A stretch of 64,000 bases of DNA from an uncultured bacterium. GTDB taxonomy: Bacteria > Bacillota_I > Bacilli_A > RFN20 > CAG-826. Below, piece after piece: positions 11,011 through 33,726 of this stretch; position 1 is the stretch's first letter, and each line of letters begins with the position of its first letter. The notes under the pieces were generated by a model. The model had not been told where the DNA came from and made no database searches. It was given only the letters and a program-made list of their open reading frames with translations. The stretch is taken from assembly GCA_949297805.1 (NCBI GenBank), contig CASFTG010000001.1:372001-436000 (forward strand). The letters are read 5' to 3'. The position numbers were made by a program, and so were the translations under genes.

Positions 11011-11079
11011 GAAAATGCCATCACGAAACTTTCAAAAATGCCATCACGGATTATTGAAAAATGCCATCACCGACCATAT
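11011..11079 (+). repeat. Array A: three direct repeats at 23-bp period before a DUF4143 ATPase gene
   Basis: Three contiguous 23-base units begin at 11011, 11034 and 11057. Each carries the invariant core AAAATGCCATCAC; the remaining ten bases vary. The period is about two helical turns, so all copies face the same side of DNA. The third core lies in the spacer between the -35 and -10 of the promoter for the gene at 11102. A related core (ATGCCATCA) recurs in the array before the paralogue at 30645. I read this as an operator array; the binding protein, perhaps the ATPase itself, is unknown. Confidence 0.85.
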
Positions 11080-11082
11080 AAT
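11054..11082 (+). promoter_or_regulatory. Promoter of the first DUF4143 ATPase, overlapped by repeat copy 3
   Basis: TTGAAA (11054-11059), a 17-bp spacer, and a perfect TATAAT (11077-11082). The spacer contains the third AAAATGCCATCAC core, so a protein bound there should block or modulate RNA polymerase. Confidence 0.75.
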
Positions 11083-11101
11083 GCCCGCGAAAGGAAACCA
11101 G

Positions 11102-12415
11102 ATGTACCGTCCTCGACTCTTAGATAGCCTGATTGAAAAGAACCTGTCTTTGCTCGGCGGTGTGTACCTGCGCGGGCCTAAATGGGTTGGCAAAACCACC
11201 TCTTGCCTTCAGCATGCTCATTTCGCCTATAAATTGCTGTCGCGAAATGATTTGCTGACGGTTCAAGGGCTCTATGATGTCGATCCCTCGCTTATTTTCG
11301 AGCATGAGCCTCCGATTCTCTTTGATGAATGGCAATGCTTTCCGCCAATTTGGGATGAGTGCAAAATCTTTATCGACGCCAATCATGCCAAGGGAGGACG
11401 GGTTCTTTTGACTGGGTCGAATGAGCTATCTGAGGAGAAAAAACGGGAGTATATCCATCATTCCGGCCTTGGTCGGATCGCCACCCTTTTCCTTCGGCCG
11501 ATGTCTTTGTTTGAGTCTGGGGAGTCCGATGGGTCGGTTTCTCTCCAATCCCTTTTTGAGCCGGGCGCCAAGGTAAACGGGGCTAAATCTAATTTGACCT
11601 ATAAGCAATTGGTGCACCTTTGCCATCGGGGAGGCTTCCCCCGGTCGCTCGAGCTTCCAAACGAAGAAGCCGGGTTCGTTGCCTCGACCATTATCGCCAA
11701 CTTGACCGATAACCTCGGATTCGATGAAGAAGGCGGAGTGGGTCTTTCCAAAGATCGTATGCGGTTATTTCTCTCGGAGTTAGCCCGTAATGACTGCACC
11801 TTAACCTCCTATGCCACGATGTTAGCCAACATCAAAAGCGAGGAGAATTTCCCGGTCAGTCAGGCGACCTTTGAACGTTACCGCTATTTTTTGAACCGGC
11901 GCTACATAATAGAGGAAATACCGGCCTGGTCGTCGGTCTTTAAATCGCGGGTAAATATCATTGCTTCGCCAAAAAAGACGTTTATTGATCCGTCCTTGGC
12001 CATTGCCGCTTTGCATCTTAACGAAGCGGATTTGTTTTCCCGCCCGGCGGATTTCGGTTTTTTCTTCGAAAATCTTGTCCTTCGTGATTTGCAGGTTTAT
12101 GCCGCGACGATCGGGGGATCGGTTTTCCATTATCGGGACCGGCATGGTTTGGAGGCCGATGCGGTCTTGCGGCTTAACGATGGACACTATGCGCTTATTG
12201 AGATAAAGACGGGTGGGATGAAGCCTTTGCTAGAAGGGGAAAAGCATCTACTCTCTATCAAAGAGGAAATGATGGCTTACAATTCGACGGTCAACGATCC
12301 GTCCGCCATTCAGGCTTTGCCTTCGGCTTTGGTTGTTATCGGCGGGGTCGTACCGACGGGGATGACGACAAAAAACGGGGTTCATATTGTTCCAATTGGC
12401 TGTTTGAAGCCTTGA
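11102..12415 (+). CDS. Stand-alone AAA ATPase with DUF4143 (PD-(D/E)xK-like) C-terminus
   Basis: 437 residues from the ATG at 11102, preceded by AAAGGA; the longer open frame upstream only translates the repeat array. Walker A GPKWVGKTT is near residue 25 and Walker B ILFDEWQ near 75. The C-terminal DUF4143 part has GLEADAV followed by ALIEIKTG (about residues 349-372), the E/D...ExK pattern of restriction-like nuclease folds. Members of this ATPase family are widespread, often many per genome, and have no settled function. It sits just after tRNA-Cys. A paralogue lies at 30645. Nuclease activity is inference only. Confidence 0.85.
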   Translation: MYRPRLLDSLIEKNLSLLGGVYLRGPKWVGKTTSCLQHAHFAYKLLSRNDLLTVQGLYDVDPSLIFEHEPPILFDEWQCFPPIWDECKIFIDANHAKGGRVLLTGSNELSEEKKREYIHHSGLGRIATLFLRPMSLFESGESDGSVSLQSLFEPGAKVNGAKSNLTYKQLVHLCHRGGFPRSLELPNEEAGFVASTIIANLTDNLGFDEEGGVGLSKDRMRLFLSELARNDCTLTSYATMLANIKSEENFPVSQATFERYRYFLNRRYIIEEIPAWSSVFKSRVNIIASPKKTFIDPSLAIAALHLNEADLFSRPADFGFFFENLVLRDLQVYAATIGGSVFHYRDRHGLEADAVLRLNDGHYALIEIKTGGMKPLLEGEKHLLSIKEEMMAYNSTVNDPSAIQALPSALVVIGGVVPTGMTTKNGVHIVPIGCLKP

Positions 12416-15625: not shown

Positions 15626-15793
15626 ATTTGCACCTCATAACAATGGAACTGTAGTAGGGGAGACAAACGCTTTCTTGACCCCGATATCTCCGGAATGGCG
15701 GCCATCCGCCAAGTAGGTTTGAGTTATAGACGGCTTTCCATCTATCAATAAGGTCAACCGGCGGCAAAATTAGTTTCCTTGGATGGGGCTCTA

Positions 15794-15881
15794 TACACCA
15801 AATTGAGATTATCGGCGCCACGTTCATACACCAAATTGAGATTATCGAACCCGTGTTTTTACACCTAATTGAGATTATTTA
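15794..15881. repeat. Array C: three 21-bp repeats at exact 33-bp period, no gene attached
   Basis: Copies of TACACCWAATTGAGATTATY start at 15794, 15827 and 15860; each is followed by 12 variable bases. The period is three helical turns. The 480-base gap from tRNA-Pro to the next gene holds only this array, the terminator and a promoter at its end. A short minus-strand open frame next to it (15624-15827) translates part of the array and shows no domain I know; it may be the relic of a lost gene. Confidence 0.85.
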
Positions 15882-27570: not shown

Positions 27571-27900
27571 ATGAAACTGACTAACGAAATCGCCATCCTC
27601 CGCGAAGTCCTGCAATTAAGCGATTCCGACCTCTGCTCCCAATTGGGGGTCTCGATGGAGACGCTGAACAATTGGAAGTTCGGCCGCAAAGGCGTGGGGA
27701 TTGCCAGTCTGGAGAAAGTGTATTCCTTTGCCTTTGCCCAGGGCATCGGATTGAATAGCATTTATGAGCAGCTTTTACGGGAAGAGCACGAAAACACCCA
27801 ATCCGCCGTTTTTTCCATGGCGCCAAAAGGCCCTTTGCCTTGCCGATTGATCCCGCCAATTCGAAGGCAAATAACGATTTCGGCGTCGGTTTCTATTTAG
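27571..27900 (+). CDS. HTH domain part of a frameshifted HTH-DUF3990 gene
   Basis: About 80 good residues: an N-terminal helix-turn-helix (ILREVLQLSDSDLCSQLGVS) with a good ribosome site GAAAGGAAG. After a GTTTTTTCC tract the frame drifts into a meaningless Pro/Arg-rich tail. The next frame picks up exactly there with FFHGAKRPFALPIDPAN, the start of a DUF3990 domain. One more T (T7 instead of T6) would make a single protein. So this is the 5' half of one gene. Confidence 0.65.
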   Translation: MKLTNEIAILREVLQLSDSDLCSQLGVSMETLNNWKFGRKGVGIASLEKVYSFAFAQGIGLNSIYEQLLREEHENTQSAVFSMAPKGPLPCRLIPPIRRQITISASVSI

Positions 27901-28421
27901 GCGAAACCTTCGAGCAAGCCGCCAACTACATCTCCGCACTCGACCGGAATTTCGTGTATTGCTTCCGGCTGAATCGGCGCAGTTTGAAAACCTATCAATT
28001 CAACGTCGATGCCGACTGGATGATCGCCATCGCTTACTTCCGGGGCTGGCTGGATGATTATCGGAATCATCCGCTTGTTCAGAAGCTTATCAACGGCCTA
28101 TCCGATTACGACGTCATCATCGCCCCGATCGCCGATAACCGGATGTTCGATATCATCGGCGAATTCATCGGGGGTGAGATCACGGACGAGCAATGCAAGC
28201 ATGCCTTGGCGGCCACCAACCTTGGCTTTCAATACGTCCTCAAAACCAAAAAGGCGTTGAGCCATGCTGAATTGCTGAAGGAAATGTTCATCTGTCAGAA
28301 GGAAAAAGCCCAATGCATCGAGAAACGGGCCTTATTGACCGATAACGGGGCCCAAAAGGTCAAAGTCGCCCGAATCCAATACAAGAACAAAGGACACTAT
28401 ATTGAGGAAATACTCCAATGA
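27810..28421 (+). CDS. DUF3990 (ADP-ribosyltransferase-like) part of the frameshifted gene
   Basis: In this frame the domain opens with FFHGAK and continues NDFGVGFYLGETFEQAANY, the signature of DUF3990, a family related to ADP-ribosyltransferases and often found as toxin-like genes with an HTH. It has no start of its own other than a TTG (27840) without ribosome site. It overlaps the next gene by ATGA. A zinc macrodomain hydrolase, which removes ADP-ribose from proteins, lies 1 kb downstream. Confidence 0.7.
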   Translation, partial: FFHGAKRPFALPIDPANSKANNDFGVGFYLGETFEQAANYISALDRNFVYCFRLNRRSLKTYQFNVDADWMIAIAYFRGWLDDYRNHPLVQKLINGLSDYDVIIAPIADNRMFDIIGEFIGGEITDEQCKHALAATNLGFQYVLKTKKALSHAELLKEMFICQKEKAQCIEKRALLTDNGAQKVKVARIQYKNKGHYIEEILQ

Positions 28422-28957
28422 CGCCGCTAAGTTTCATCGAGTTTAAGCTCTGCCAAGCCCAAGCCAGGATATTCGAGGCTTCGGTCACTAAGACTGACTA
28501 TAGCTCCCCGATCTTCATTCGTCGCTTCGTCTATTCCTCGATCGCCAAGGCCTTTGATGAGAAGGTTTACCTTTGTCGCTTCGATACGGTCGAAGTGGCG
28601 TTGGATGTCATTGATGAGGAATTCCCTGAATCGAGTTATGGGAGAATAAAATACACCCCGGATCAAATGTATTGGATCGGCTACATATATCGGTGCCTTT
28701 GCCTGAGATATAACCTATCCAGCAAACGCGTTTATCAGTTGTTCAATGCCCGGGAAATCGTCCAGTATTACCCGACATTCCACACCTTTGACATCGTCGA
28801 TGCCGCCGAGCGGATGATGGAGAACATCGATTACGATGACTCACCCATCCAAGAAAGGGCCTATAAGGTCGCCAAGCGTTTGCTATATCGGGAAAAGCTG
28901 ATTGGCTTAATGGGGGGGAGAAGTCAAGGTCTATGTCGACCGGCCAATTGGCTTTGA
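28418..28957 (+). CDS. Hypothetical partner of the DUF3990 gene, frame-shifted at its 3' end
   Basis: 179 residues, coupled by ATGA to the DUF3990 gene. The body (VYSSIAKAFDEKVYL, YTPDQMYWIGYIYRCL, TFDIVDAAERMM) is well-formed, helical and reminds me of proteins that accompany DUF3990, possibly antitoxins. The last 20 residues, after a run of seven G, are in the wrong frame for the sequence that follows, which encodes a pyrophosphatase-like protein. The natural C-terminus is therefore probably near LLYREKLIG. Confidence 0.6.
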   Translation: MTPLSFIEFKLCQAQARIFEASVTKTDYSSPIFIRRFVYSSIAKAFDEKVYLCRFDTVEVALDVIDEEFPESSYGRIKYTPDQMYWIGYIYRCLCLRYNLSSKRVYQLFNAREIVQYYPTFHTFDIVDAAERMMENIDYDDSPIQERAYKVAKRLLYREKLIGLMGGRSQGLCRPANWL

Positions 28958-29252
28958 TCATGAGGGAGTCGTCTATCCGCTGAATTATGGATATATCAAG
29001 GAGTTGAAAGCCCCCGACGGGGAATATCAGGACGCCTATGTTTTAGGGATCGAAGAGCCGGTGAAGACGTTCGTCGACCAACTCATCGCGGTGATAATCC
29101 GGAAGAATGATGACGAGGACAAATTGGTCGTCGCGGCTAAGGACCGACAATACTCAAAGGAAGAGATTCGCCAAGCGGTGAATTTCCAAGAGCAGCACTT
29201 CAAGAGCAAAATCATTATTCCCGGCGAACGGCGCGAATGGGATGACGAATAA
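28911..29252 (+). CDS. Small inorganic pyrophosphatase-like protein, start disrupted by a G run
   Basis: Open frame of about 113 residues: EVKVYVDRPIG, YPLNYGYI, APDGEYQDAYVLG, then RKNDDEDK and a final FQEQHF. These match the compact pyrophosphatase-like proteins of Firmicutes (DRP-G, YP-NYGY, DG-EQDAYILG). No start codon lies in frame. An ATG at 28910 directly before the G7 run would be in frame if the run had six G. Thus either a broken gene, slippage, or read error. Confidence 0.65.
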   Translation, partial: WGGEVKVYVDRPIGFDHEGVVYPLNYGYIKELKAPDGEYQDAYVLGIEEPVKTFVDQLIAVIIRKNDDEDKLVVAAKDRQYSKEEIRQAVNFQEQHFKSKIIIPGERREWDDE

Positions 29253-29394
29253 AATCAAATCGCCTCGGCCTAGTTGCTCAATCAGCCGAACTCCATCACT
29301 CGGGCTATCGATGTCTGATTTACCCATCCAATAAGCGCAGCGATATAGGTAGCCATCGGATTGTTTGTCTATAATTCCCAAAAAGGAAAATGAC

Positions 29395-30168
29395 ATGGAC
29401 GCGATCAGATGGTGCATCGATTACCTAAAAGTCTATAACGGCCTGAAAACGGGATTCAATCTACCGATTGAGAAGGAATTCCGGGCCTTGATGAATATCA
29501 CGATGCCGGTTGATCTAGCCGAGGAGTATTACCTTAAGCAAGGGCAAGCCTTAAAGGAAATAAACGCCAGACGTGGGGCGGTCGATGCCTTATCCTTACC
29601 TCGTCAAGAGCCCCATTTAGCCCTTTATCGAGGCGACATCACCCGGTTAAAAGTTGACGCCATCGTCGATGCCGGGAACGAAAAGCTGCTCGGCTGCTTC
29701 ATCCCCCTCCATTCTTGCGTCGATAACGCCATTTTCTCCTTTGCCGGGCTCGAGGTTCGGCGGGACTTGCTGGAGGTTATGGAAAAGCAAGGCCATGACG
29801 AGCCGGAGGGAAAGGTCAAGGTCACCAAGGGGTATAACCTGCCTTCTCCCTATATCTTCCATACCGTAGGGCCAAAAGGATATGACCCCAAGTGGGAGGG
29901 GAAGCTAACGGATTGCTATTTATCCTGCTTACGCCAGGCGGAGCGGATGAACCTCCGCAGCCTAGCCTTCTGCTCCATCTCAACCGGGGTCTATGGCTAT
30001 CCGATCGAGGAGGCGGCGCCTTTGGCCTTGAAGCTGACCAAGGAATACCTTAAGACCAGTTCCTTGGAGTTGGTGGTCTTCGTCACCTATAGCGATTATG
30101 ACGCTCGGGTTTATGGCGATTCGTTACGCTGTTTGGAAGAAAAGGAACGGTTTTTGCAGGTAAAATGA
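29395..30168 (+). CDS. Zinc-dependent macrodomain protein-ADP-ribose hydrolase
   Basis: 258 residues from ATG with AAAGGAAA. The macrodomain occupies the C-terminal two thirds. The zinc-binding signature of the SirTM-linked class is plain: DAGNEKLLGCFIPLHSC with Cys-His-Cys ligands, then SISTGVYGYP. These enzymes remove ADP-ribose from proteins and are often paired with an ADP-ribosyltransferase or sirtuin. Here the DUF3990 gene upstream is a possible partner; the standard SirTM/GcvH-L/LplA2 genes are absent. TATAAT at 29370 may be its own promoter. Confidence 0.9.
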   Translation: MDAIRWCIDYLKVYNGLKTGFNLPIEKEFRALMNITMPVDLAEEYYLKQGQALKEINARRGAVDALSLPRQEPHLALYRGDITRLKVDAIVDAGNEKLLGCFIPLHSCVDNAIFSFAGLEVRRDLLEVMEKQGHDEPEGKVKVTKGYNLPSPYIFHTVGPKGYDPKWEGKLTDCYLSCLRQAERMNLRSLAFCSISTGVYGYPIEEAAPLALKLTKEYLKTSSLELVVFVTYSDYDARVYGDSLRCLEEKERFLQVK

Positions 30169-30171
30169 GGT

Positions 30172-30246
30172 ACTTCACACTGAGTGAAGTGAAGTGTGAA
30201 GTAAGAGTGAAGTAAAACTTCATTCTGAAATTTTAAGAGTGAAGTA
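30172..30246 (+). repeat. Array E: GTGAAGTA motif repeated at about 11-bp steps
   Basis: GTGAAGT at 30184, 30189, 30196, 30207 and 30239, plus inverted ACTTCAC at 30172 that forms a perfect 7-bp palindrome with the 30184 copy. The same motif, inverted, forms another array at 60323. No gene in the window is clearly tied to it. Confidence 0.7.
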
Positions 30247-30366
30247 ACCCCCATCCTTATCCAGACAGAGGTCAGTAGGCGATAGGTTATCAATTTCATA
30301 AGAAAGCCGGGTATCCGAGGTGAAAACGCCGAGTATCAAGCAGGAGGGATTAACCGGTTTTCAATA

Positions 30367-30606
30367 ACCGGAATGAAATGCCATCAAAAACCGGAATGAA
30401 AGGCCATCAAAAACCGGAATGTATGGCCACCAAAAACCGGAATTGGTGCTAAATAAGGTATGTTTTATAAAAAATAAACGTGAGAAAAAGACCGATAAAA
30501 ACTTGACTATCTAATAAAAACATCAAAAACCGGAATGAATGGCCATCAAAAACCGGAATCATATATAATCTATAACCGGATTAAATGTCATTTATTTACC
30601 GGAATT
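30367..30606 (+). repeat. Array F: eight repeats at exact 23-bp period in two blocks of four
   Basis: ACCGGA starts at 30367, 30390, 30413, 30436, then after 93 bases at 30529, 30552, 30575 and 30598. Full units are ACCGGAATG + three bases + GCCATCAAAA; later ones keep mainly ACCGGAAT. The gap equals four periods plus one base. A TATAAT (30564) lies inside the second block. The ATPase gene starts 47 bases after the last copy. The half-motif ATGCCATCA equals the core of the array at 11011. Binding-site array by inference. Confidence 0.92.
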
Positions 30607-30644
30607 GACTAGCATAAAAACGTTTTATCGTTTACAATGGCAAT

Positions 30645-31931
30645 ATGAAAATTGAATATCGCAATCGCCTAGCCGAAAAAACTCTTGAGAGAAAGTTGAG
30701 ATCCTCGGGCTGCGTCCTTATCCGTGGACCAAAAAGCTGTGGGAAAACTACGCTTGCCAAGCGATTCGCTAAATCGCAGTTCGTCTTGCGGACGAGGGAC
30801 GATATCGGGTTGGCGAGGGTTAATCCCCAATTGATTTTAGCCGGCGATCCCCCTCGTTTGATTGATGAATGGCAAAAAGCCCCGGATATTTGGAACCACA
30901 TCAAAGCCGCTCTTGATGATGATTTCATGTTTGGCCGATTCATCCTAACCGGCAGCACGACCCCGGTTGATCCGAAGTTCATCCTCCATTCCGGCACTGG
31001 TCGCATCTCCCGGATGACCCTCTATCCCTTTTCGCTTTTCGAATCGGGCGAATCGAATGGGCATGTCTCGCTCGGGTCGCTATTGGAGTCTCCCCATATC
31101 GAGCCGTTGCTGGCGGCCGATAACCATATTGCATTGAAGGACATCGCATATCTTATTTGCCGCGGCGGCTGGCCGTTATCGCTTCTATCCGGAAAGGAGG
31201 ACGCCATCGACGTGACGAGGAATTACTACGATGGGCTCTTCGTCGCCGAGGACGAAAACGATGAATATTCCGATTTCTTCAAAAGCAAAGATGTCGATCT
31301 GCTGGAGATAATCCTCAAAGGCTTCGCCCGCAATATCTCGACCCCGGCGAAGAAAAGCCGAATGATTGCGGCGATTTTGGAGTCCGGCCGTCGAAGAACC
31401 TTAGACGAGAAGACGTTCGACGCGTATTACAAGACGTTGAAGGATCTGTTTATCGTATATGAATTGCTTCCTTGGAATGCCAATATCCGTTCCTCGGTGA
31501 TGATCCGCCAATCCCCGGTTTATCACTTCTTCGATCCGTCAATTGCCGCCGCCAGTCTTCGTCTATCCCCGGCCCGCTTGGTGGAGGATCTGCACTCGCT
31601 AGGACTGTTCTTTGAGGACTTGGCGATCCGAGACTTGACCATCTATGCCGAAGCCATTGGGGCCGACGTCTCTTATTACCGGGATTCCAGCGGCCTGGAG
31701 GTTGATGCCATCATTACTTTCCCTGACGGGGATTATGGGGCGGTCGAGATCAAGGTCGCTGGGGACGATTCCCTGACTCGAGGTAGGAAATCGCTTCTAT
31801 CATTCGAAAAGAAGATGAGGGAAAACGGCAATCCGACCCCCGCCTTCAAAATGATTTTGACTAGCCATGGGGCCTGTTACCAAGGGGCGGACGGAATCTA
31901 TGTGGTGCCCATCAATTGCCTGCGGCCTTGA
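30645..31931 (+). CDS. Stand-alone AAA ATPase with DUF4143 C-terminus, second paralogue
   Basis: 428 residues. Walker A GPKSCGKTT (residues 28-36), Walker B RLIDEWQ near 75, sensor-like FILTGSTTP, and C-terminal GLEVDAI with AVEIKVAG, the nuclease-like E-D...ExK pattern. It is a clear relative of the ATPase at 11102 (shared GTGRI/SLFESGES and final VPINCLRP/VPIGCLKP). No ribosome site precedes its ATG, so leaderless or weak translation is possible. Role unknown. It lies next to an AbiE module but on the opposite strand. Confidence 0.85.
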   Translation: MKIEYRNRLAEKTLERKLRSSGCVLIRGPKSCGKTTLAKRFAKSQFVLRTRDDIGLARVNPQLILAGDPPRLIDEWQKAPDIWNHIKAALDDDFMFGRFILTGSTTPVDPKFILHSGTGRISRMTLYPFSLFESGESNGHVSLGSLLESPHIEPLLAADNHIALKDIAYLICRGGWPLSLLSGKEDAIDVTRNYYDGLFVAEDENDEYSDFFKSKDVDLLEIILKGFARNISTPAKKSRMIAAILESGRRRTLDEKTFDAYYKTLKDLFIVYELLPWNANIRSSVMIRQSPVYHFFDPSIAAASLRLSPARLVEDLHSLGLFFEDLAIRDLTIYAEAIGADVSYYRDSSGLEVDAIITFPDGDYGAVEIKVAGDDSLTRGRKSLLSFEKKMRENGNPTPAFKMILTSHGACYQGADGIYVVPINCLRP

Positions 31932-32075: not shown

Positions 32076-33017
32076 TTAAAGTTCCAAGGATTCGAGCTTA
32101 TCTCCGATTTGCTCCATCGTTTTCAGCACTTCTTCAAAGGTAGGGAACTTATCGAAAAAAGACATGCTATGCATGATTGACTCATAGCCCTTTCGAACAT
32201 CGCGATTGAGTTTTTCTTTCCAACTGGAATAAGCATAGGGCCCGGTCGGGTCATAGCCTTGTTCGCCCCATTCGGAATGGCGCTTAACGTAATAGGCGTC
32301 GGATTCTTTGCTTAAGGCGATGAGCGATCTTAATTCATCCGGATTAGCGAACAGGCTCTCGATGTCGGGGTGTTTCATCATCAAGGTGACGTCATTGAGG
32401 TGACGGGAATTGATGGAGAGTTTCCCAATATAGGCATAACGTTTGATGGCTAAAAGCTTATCGAGGAAGGTCCGCTTAATGGAAGTGACGTTGATTGTTA
32501 CCTCCTTCAAGCCATATTGCTCGATTTCTTTGTCTAGCCCCCGTTGCTCCATGAATTCCTGGATATATGATTTGATGGGGCGCGGTGAGTAGGGGATGGA
32601 GTTGGAGAAGGAACCGATATCGAGTTTGATTGGCTCGATGCCTTCGATTAGAAGAACGCTGCTTTTGTGGCGGGGATATCGCTTATGGATGTCTTTTTGA
32701 AAGGTGGTGCCTTCAATGTTGGACAAGATGGTTTCGATCTCCTTGATGTTTCGGCTGCATTGTCCGTTGGATAAAGACGATCCTAAATAGTTGAGGTCGA
32801 CGTCTTCGGAGAAACGATCGATCGAACCGGGATAGCCTTTGCTTAAGGAGGTGCCGCCTTTGAAGATGCAATCATTGGCGAATGGGGAAGTGGCGAGGTT
32901 AAAAAGCATCTTGACGATGTAGTAGTCGCGCTTGATATTGCTGATGGAGATGCCTTTGGCTTCAGCGGTGTGAACCGCCATCACCTCAAAAAACGACGGG
33001 GTTAGATGCAGATTCAT
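32076..33017 (-). CDS. abiEii: AbiEii nucleotidyltransferase toxin
   Basis: 313 residues from the ATG with GGAGG six bases upstream. Residues 53-76 carry the nucleotidyltransferase signature KGGTSLSK ... RFSEDVDL with the metal-binding Asp pair D72/D74. AbiEii/MenT-type toxins modify tRNA 3' ends or nucleotides and stop growth after phage infection. The start overlaps the end of the antitoxin gene by 32 bases, so the pair is coupled. Confidence 0.9.
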   Translation of the reverse strand: MNLHLTPSFFEVMAVHTAEAKGISISNIKRDYYIVKMLFNLATSPFANDCIFKGGTSLSKGYPGSIDRFSEDVDLNYLGSSLSNGQCSRNIKEIETILSNIEGTTFQKDIHKRYPRHKSSVLLIEGIEPIKLDIGSFSNSIPYSPRPIKSYIQEFMEQRGLDKEIEQYGLKEVTINVTSIKRTFLDKLLAIKRYAYIGKLSINSRHLNDVTLMMKHPDIESLFANPDELRSLIALSKESDAYYVKRHSEWGEQGYDPTGPYAYSSWKEKLNRDVRKGYESIMHSMSFFDKFPTFEEVLKTMEQIGDKLESLEL

Positions 33018-33699
33018 TGATGTCCTCCATTTTGGGTATGTCGTAAAACGAATACTCACTAAGGTACTGATTGAGTTCGTTTTTGATGTTATAGAAGTTC
33101 AGTAGGTTCCGGAGGAAGGCGATGGTGCTTTTCTTGTAACGCCTTTTCTTCAATAGCTTAGCCAAGACTTTTTCGTCAAAGGATTCGGCGACTCTCTTCG
33201 AATAGTCCATGAAGGCCCCTTCGTCGAGGTCGGGGATTTCCTTATAGTGTTCCAACACCTCCAAGACCGAGAGGGTATCGACGGTCGGCTTATCGAATTT
33301 GACGTTGAGCCGATAGGCGGTGCACTTGCCGATTTGCTTTTTGTCACCGTCGATTCGGGAGGTCAGGAATTCTTTTCGTGCCGGGACTTGAGTGGTGAGC
33401 CCGAGTTGGTTATAAAGGGCATAGCCAACCGGCATGCCCGATTCGTCGGCGGTCAATGACTGACCGATTTTGTCGATGTCGATGGTGACCCGGCCGTATT
33501 GGTCTTCGTAGGGAAAGTAGTAAACGCCTCGGGCGGCTTTGGACAAGGTCCCATCCTCAACCAGCCGTTCCAAGCATTTATAGTAGGTCAGTTCATTGAC
33601 CCGACCATCTAACCGTTTACGGTATAAGGCGGAAGCGAAGATCAATTGCTCGACCTCGAACTTTTTCAGTTCGTTTTTGATTATCTGCATCTGACTCAT
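32986..33699 (-). CDS. abiEi: AbiEi antitoxin, winged-helix repressor
   Basis: 237 residues. N-terminal winged helix (residues 1-80, ending GVYYFPYED), then the AbiEi body GMPVGYALYNQLGLTTQVP. ATG at 33699 has GGAAGGGG eight bases upstream, better than the TTG two codons earlier. AbiEi neutralises AbiEii and represses the operon by binding inverted repeats; such a repeat is present at the promoter. Confidence 0.88.
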   Translation of the reverse strand: MSQMQIIKNELKKFEVEQLIFASALYRKRLDGRVNELTYYKCLERLVEDGTLSKAARGVYYFPYEDQYGRVTIDIDKIGQSLTADESGMPVGYALYNQLGLTTQVPARKEFLTSRIDGDKKQIGKCTAYRLNVKFDKPTVDTLSVLEVLEHYKEIPDLDEGAFMDYSKRVAESFDEKVLAKLLKKRRYKKSTIAFLRNLLNFYNIKNELNQYLSEYSFYDIPKMEDINESASNPVVF

Positions 33700-33726
33700 A
33701 TACAATCCCCTTCCTTTGTTACCTAA

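Follow-up and report, generated by a model that had tools for sequence, protein, structure and literature searches.

The array and the ATPase gene

The locus described here lies in the window (the whole stretch of 64,000 nucleotides that was analysed) and consists of two blocks of short direct repeats followed by a gene for an AAA_14-DUF4143 ATPase, whose product combines an ATPase with a nuclease signature. The features of the locus are the following.

30360..30444, plus strand: array block 1, four copies, core (catcaaaa)ACCGGAAT, core starts 30367, 30390, 30413 and 30436
30520..30605, plus strand: array block 2, four copies, core starts 30529, 30552, 30575 (ACCGGATT) and 30598
30645..31931, plus strand: AAA_14-DUF4143 ATPase gene, 428 aa, PADLOC family PDC-S01 (Pfam, PADLOC; AlphaFold2 pLDDT 88)
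30711..31043, plus strand: AAA+ domain (AAA_14, residues 23–133), Walker A and Walker B invariant
31263..31529, plus strand: winged-helix-like order of elements, residues 207–295 (AlphaFold2 secondary structure)
31407–31445, plus strand: predicted recognition helix, residues 255–267, with the Lys256 codon AAG at 31410–31412
31698..31754, plus strand: PD-(D/E)XK nuclease signature E352-x-D354 ... E368-x-K370, invariant or nearly so in 24 proteins

The hexamer ACCGGA begins at each of the eight core starts, with a step of 23 bp inside each four-copy block and a distance of 93 bp (4 × 23 + 1) between the blocks. The cores are approximately 14–16 bp long, the middle copies have GCCATCAAAA (or CATCAAAA) in common, and the final core of block 2 ends approximately 39 bp before the ATG of the ATPase gene. 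An earlier note on this DNA had described eight 23-bp-phased copies in two blocks of four directly 5′ of the gene, an offset between the blocks of four periods plus one base, and a sequence shared among the middle copies, all of which is confirmed. The 23-bp autocorrelation count in the 330 bp before the ATG was 60, compared with a maximum of 15 among 5000 Markov surrogates, and the array received a Tandem Repeats Finder score of 131.

The possibility of a CRISPR array, which the note had already dismissed, was rejected because longer and almost identical repeats, separated by spacers of comparable length, are missing and no cas family occurs among the neighbouring proteins that were scanned. 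A search of Rfam for an RNA element gave no match for the array. Just 5′ of the array, positions 30167–30250 hold short GAGTGAAGTAA repeats in an 11-bp tandem, which are near-identical in the related genome G009.

The encoded protein and its neighbours

Both AAA_14 and DUF4143, and no other Pfam family, were found above cut-off in the window protein, and PADLOC PDLC04790 matches its residues 4–426 (E 5e-56). The protein is thus a member of PDC-S01, a PADLOC phage-defence candidate (AAA_14-DUF4143, COG1373) that joins an ATPase to a PD-(D/E)XK domain. PDC-S01 is among the commonest candidate defence genes, with validation by experiment pending (PMC12988326).

The AlphaFold2 model shows a confident order of AAA+, winged-helix and PD-(D/E)XK parts. 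Both of the array-bearing clades described below show little or no variation at the Walker A/B and PD-(D/E)XK residues, and the clade with 33-bp arrays has the same kind of PD-(D/E)XK residues as that with 23-bp arrays. A sequence search of the PDB returned no relative. VIA-align gave Z scores of 14.2 to 2QEN, 13.3 to 2FNA and 10–11 to CED-4 and plant NLRs (AAA+ plus winged-helix), and the Foldseek matches include Orc2 and Cdc6. At the level of overall fold, the predicted AAA+ plus winged-helix part is similar to that of the archaeal ATPases 2QEN and 2FNA, the Orc1/Cdc6 initiators and the STAND/NLR ATPases, to which the protein may be akin. It differs from all of these in its C-terminal PD-(D/E)XK domain, and an origin function is not indicated.

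On one side of the locus, at 32076–33705, an AbiEii toxin gene and an overlapping DUF6088 partner form an AbiE-like pair that is convergent with the ATPase gene, while on the other side, at 27840–30168, a DUF3990 gene, a small ORF and a macro-domain gene lie in a row and possibly constitute an ADP-ribosylation toxin–antitoxin set. The AbiE-like pair and the DUF3990 and macro-domain genes are consistent with a defence or mobile island.

Distribution of the arrays and the period of their repeats

Two further arrays and a second gene of the same kind are present in the window.

11012..11085, plus strand: second 23-bp array, three copies, core AAATGCCATCAC, before the second DUF4143 gene
11102..12415, plus strand: second DUF4143 ATPase gene, in the clade of the gene at 30645–31931, with its own array
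15790..15881, plus strand: orphan 33-bp array, three copies, core ACACCAAATTGAGATTAT (ACACCAAATTGAGATTATCG), with no adjoining DUF4143 gene

The core of the second 23-bp array differs from that of the ACCGGA array. The window genome (1.65 Mb) carries 24 DUF4143 genes, most of which have a phased array just 5′. The core differs from gene to gene; examples are GTCGTAGGAAAAACGTAACGAAAT and AACTGCTTGCGGATATTGCAGG, both in arrays with a period of 33 bp. The statement of the note that the array occurs only before the ATPase gene hence stands for the ACCGGA motif, since all five close matches to it in the whole genome fall inside its own array, and the note's refuting case of the same array away from such genes did not arise for this motif. 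The statement fails for the kind of array, which precedes most DUF4143 genes and has a few orphan representatives.

In 31 genomes of the order, a significant array was found before 84 of 124 DUF4143 genes, with nearly all periods being either 23 or 32–34 bp, whereas the downstream control regions contained few arrays, with scattered periods. In a tree of 123 of the proteins, the period follows the protein clade: 21 members of a 28-member clade have an array, in every case of 23 bp, and 59 members of a 72-member clade have one, in every case of 32–34 bp. The canonical 21-member clade has no regular array that stands up; the apparent arrays seen there (L035, L029 and L054) were discounted because they are irregular or have another period.

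The rule extends outside the order. The note had proposed testing the upstream regions of homologues by autocorrelation against shuffled controls, and this test, once run, was strongly passed: in named genomes drawn from several phyla, with Bacteroidota, Spirochaetota, Bacillota, Fibrobacter and Gardnerella among the groups represented, arrays precede 69 of 78 homologues, all with a period of 22–23 bp, while the control regions of the same 78 gave scattered periods in eight downstream and six far-upstream cases. Of 119 further homologues from the same class, 105 have a 23-bp array, and on viral contigs arrays were found in 6/6 (23 bp) and 18/21 (32–34 bp) cases. Genes on plasmids of Bacteroides ovatus (NZ_CP041396.1), B. 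uniformis (pBUN1) and Collinsella aerofaciens also fit the period rule. The ACCGGA array is one case of a widespread rule, in which private rows of sites stand before ATPase-nuclease genes. Among the open-access papers searched for DUF4143, COG1373 and PDC-S01, no report was found of the arrays, of the clade-fixed period or of the coupling between protein and motif described below, by which the present picture differs from PDC-S01 as described there.

Position of the arrays relative to the promoter

The promoters of Bacteroidota have a clear −7 box, TAnnTTTG. This box was found in 36 of 42 Bacteroidota upstream regions, compared with 7% expected from shuffles, and the distances from the last core to the box fall at 4–6, 16–17, 27, 37–40 (two at 42) and 59–60 bp. 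The best period of these distances is 11.0 bp (R 0.83), and the phasing persists after the thinning of relatives at 60–80% identity (P at most 0.006 at 65–80%), stricter thinning leaving only two sequences. In the Bacteroidota homologues, the sites thus lie at the gene's own promoter and in helical phase with it, as is expected of an operator. For the window locus and its organism, promoter prediction did no better than chance.

The note had taken the strict phase of the repeats to imply selection for helical position. Constant 23-bp spacing alone is no proof of such selection, but the 11-bp steps between array and promoter in the Bacteroidota homologues do speak for it. The phasing suggests contact with RNA polymerase. 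Sites 5 or 16 bp from the box overlap the promoter and suit repression, while those at 38 bp, just upstream, could suit either sign of control.

Conservation of the cores

Between orthologues, the cores are kept while the spacers and the copy number change. CATCAAAAACCGGAAT is retained between the window ATPase gene and its G009 orthologue (L127), GCCAAACTTGCGGTTT is common to L044 and L085, whose spacers are unrelated, and AAAAACCTAGAAAATGTGTA is common to L014, L119 and L125. The retention of the core between orthologues, with replacement of the spacers, indicates that the core is under selection. The cores are also private, as those of 15 arrays had no match elsewhere in approximately 28% of the genome.

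These comparisons bear on the idea that the repeats act as RNA, or that they are selfish or slippage-made tandem repeats without a function. Direct repeats at short distance, with a copy number that varies among orthologues, would fit this idea; however, cores that are kept while spacers differ, a period fixed within protein clades across phyla, a position tied to the promoter and the lack of an Rfam match all argue to the contrary, and the idea is considered hardly credible.

Gain and loss of genes with their arrays

Comparison of close species indicates that each array comes and goes with its gene, as a unit. G009 has a gene with core CCGCCAACCTTCCGATT at a place where the window genome keeps only two array copies, and two further genes of G009 are missing from the window genome, one of which has left a single array copy there. 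At the place of L017, G014 carries a different ATPase with a different array. Inspection by eye of three presence/absence sites revealed no terminal repeat and no target duplication.

Approximately five orphan arrays were found in the 461 kb of the window genome that were scanned, and no DUF4143 fragments were found near orphan arrays. One of them, a 23-bp array of the ACACTTTCGCGG type (L153, C1 842259–842363), adjoins atpC, and at the atpC site G022 has a DUF4143 gene of the 23-bp clade. Given the joint presence and absence of genes and arrays, orphan arrays are best read as remnants of lost genes; this origin is shown or strongly indicated for two, and not all are explained. The orphan array of the window (15790–15881) is perhaps the trace of a lost unit. 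A separate observation concerns GATGTGTCCACTTTTAGGTTACCACTGC, a 22-bp sequence situated directly 5′ of seven arrays with different cores (L013, L014, L042, L110, L119, L121 and L125). In the 461 kb of the window genome it occurs, with up to three mismatches, only before two arrays, and it may be an element end or the remnant of an insertion sequence.

A rival view is that the array is chiefly a target or licensing site of the nuclease, at which the protein would cut, nick or hold DNA, for instance in moving or copying its own gene or in marking self DNA. The near-invariance of the PD-(D/E)XK residues in both array clades would fit such a role, as would the coming and going of gene and array between close species, the occupation of one place by different gene–array pairs and the 22-bp sequence that seven arrays share. 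On the other hand, the 11-bp promoter phasing is expected of regulation and not of a target, terminal repeats and target duplications were unseen at the three sites, and arrays without genes persist. Such a role is judged unlikely to be the chief one, although it may coexist with that of an operator.

Covariation of the recognition helix with the motif

The 23-bp arrays have a common skeleton, gCCAA(A/T)-nnn-CcGAA, with a variable middle. When protein residues were compared with motif bases over 62 arrays, residue 256 and motif column 12 formed the strongest of approximately 8000 pairs (Z 8.2). In the model, residue 256 stands at the start of the helix formed by residues 255–267, which would be the recognition helix of the winged-helix domain by the order of secondary-structure elements. 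The pairing was then examined in 50 held-out arrays, with column 12 masked during alignment. Here all 11 arrays with Lys256 had G, compared with 7 of the 39 with another residue (p 8.5e-7), and Asp or Glu at this position was accompanied by C in 5 of 11, compared with 2 of 39 (p 0.004). Over both sets, Lys256 is paired with G in 20 of 20 cases, and residues 254, 255 and 256 all appear in the ten top-scoring pairs. The window protein has Lys256, and its motif has G at column 12. Arg at 256 is split between G (four arrays) and A (four arrays), and Glu is mixed. The pairing of lysine with guanine and of an acidic residue with cytosine is chemically reasonable. The covariation is strong by count, yet only approximately five independent lineages change the lysine on well-supported branches; nearly all of these changes agree with the pairing while none opposes it (sign test p 0.06).

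In the combined set, residue 348 and column 2 score as high as the pair 256/12 (Z 8.4), with column 4 at Z 6.0. Residue 348 (31686–31688) lies in a loop of the nuclease domain, and the columns with which it covaries, 2 and 4, belong to the constant half of the site. This coupling may reflect a second contact or shared ancestry, and the high score of such a pair means that shared ancestry still contributes to scores of this type. In the 33-bp clade, no clear residue–motif pair was obtained, probably because the register of the motif is unsure.

From the covariation of residue 256 with column 12, it is very probable that the array is read by the ATPase whose gene it precedes. The suggestion of the note that the ATPase itself binds the repeats is hence well supported at the level of sequence comparison, by the helix–motif covariation together with the clade-tracking period and the joint gain and loss of gene and array. 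It could instead be proposed that another protein, a separate repressor or a nucleoid protein, binds the arrays and that the ATPase gene is merely regulated. There is a precedent in RptR of E. coli, a small separate repressor that binds three direct repeats in a defence-gene promoter, before a defence island (PMC12255303). Nevertheless, approximately 20 different cores per genome would demand as many partner regulators. Moreover, both the base at motif position 12 and the period track the ATPase, the former its recognition helix and the latter its clade, and a separate binder is regarded as decidedly improbable. RptR is a separate regulator of a restriction-modification operon, whereas the arrays described here seem to be read by the effector protein itself.

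Proposed function and comparison with iterons

The array is probably a self-addressed autoregulatory operator for its ATPase-nuclease, a reading held with good confidence in which both binding and autoregulation are reconstructed from sequence. The winged-helix recognition helix of the ATPase-nuclease would bind the protein's own row of sites, probably with one protein unit to each 23-bp repeat in its clade and to each 32–34-bp repeat in the sister clade, and the bound units may form a filament or oligomer on the array, as the note had suggested. The bound protein, adjoining and partly covering its own promoter, would then control its own transcription, with repression and release on a signal thought to be the more likely sign. 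Each such gene probably controls itself through a private array; the core is different in each paralogue, so the approximately 20 copies per cell could regulate themselves without cross-talk. A role against mobile DNA may be envisaged for these proteins.

A more far-reaching version of the operator reading is speculative and rather doubtful. Dozens of orthogonal ATPase-nucleases per genome would form a class of sensor-effectors, each parked on its private promoter array. If phage takeover or the loss of DNA disturbed the array, expression would be released and the nuclease licensed, so that the array would be immune trigger and operator at once.

In iteron–Rep plasmids, direct repeats spaced by approximately two helical turns are bound by the product of an adjoining gene and serve in its autoregulation. 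The arrays resemble this arrangement in that direct repeats adjoin the gene of a putative binding protein, here proposed from covariation. Unlike iteron–Rep systems, they are mostly chromosomal, a single cell has many paralogues, each with a private core, and the proteins have a nuclease domain; no Rep domain was found in the window protein (Pfam) and no Rep family among 41 relatives.

Conclusions

Few candidate defence genes of prokaryotes are as common as this family, and the arrays make its mechanism testable. Each gene travels with its own cis site, the period is probably the footprint of the protein, and there is a partial residue-to-base code; together these allow direct and cheap tests of binding and regulation. 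The target of each protein would also be predictable from the upstream region of its own gene. The arrays may likewise provide a naturally occurring collection of numerous orthogonal regulators.
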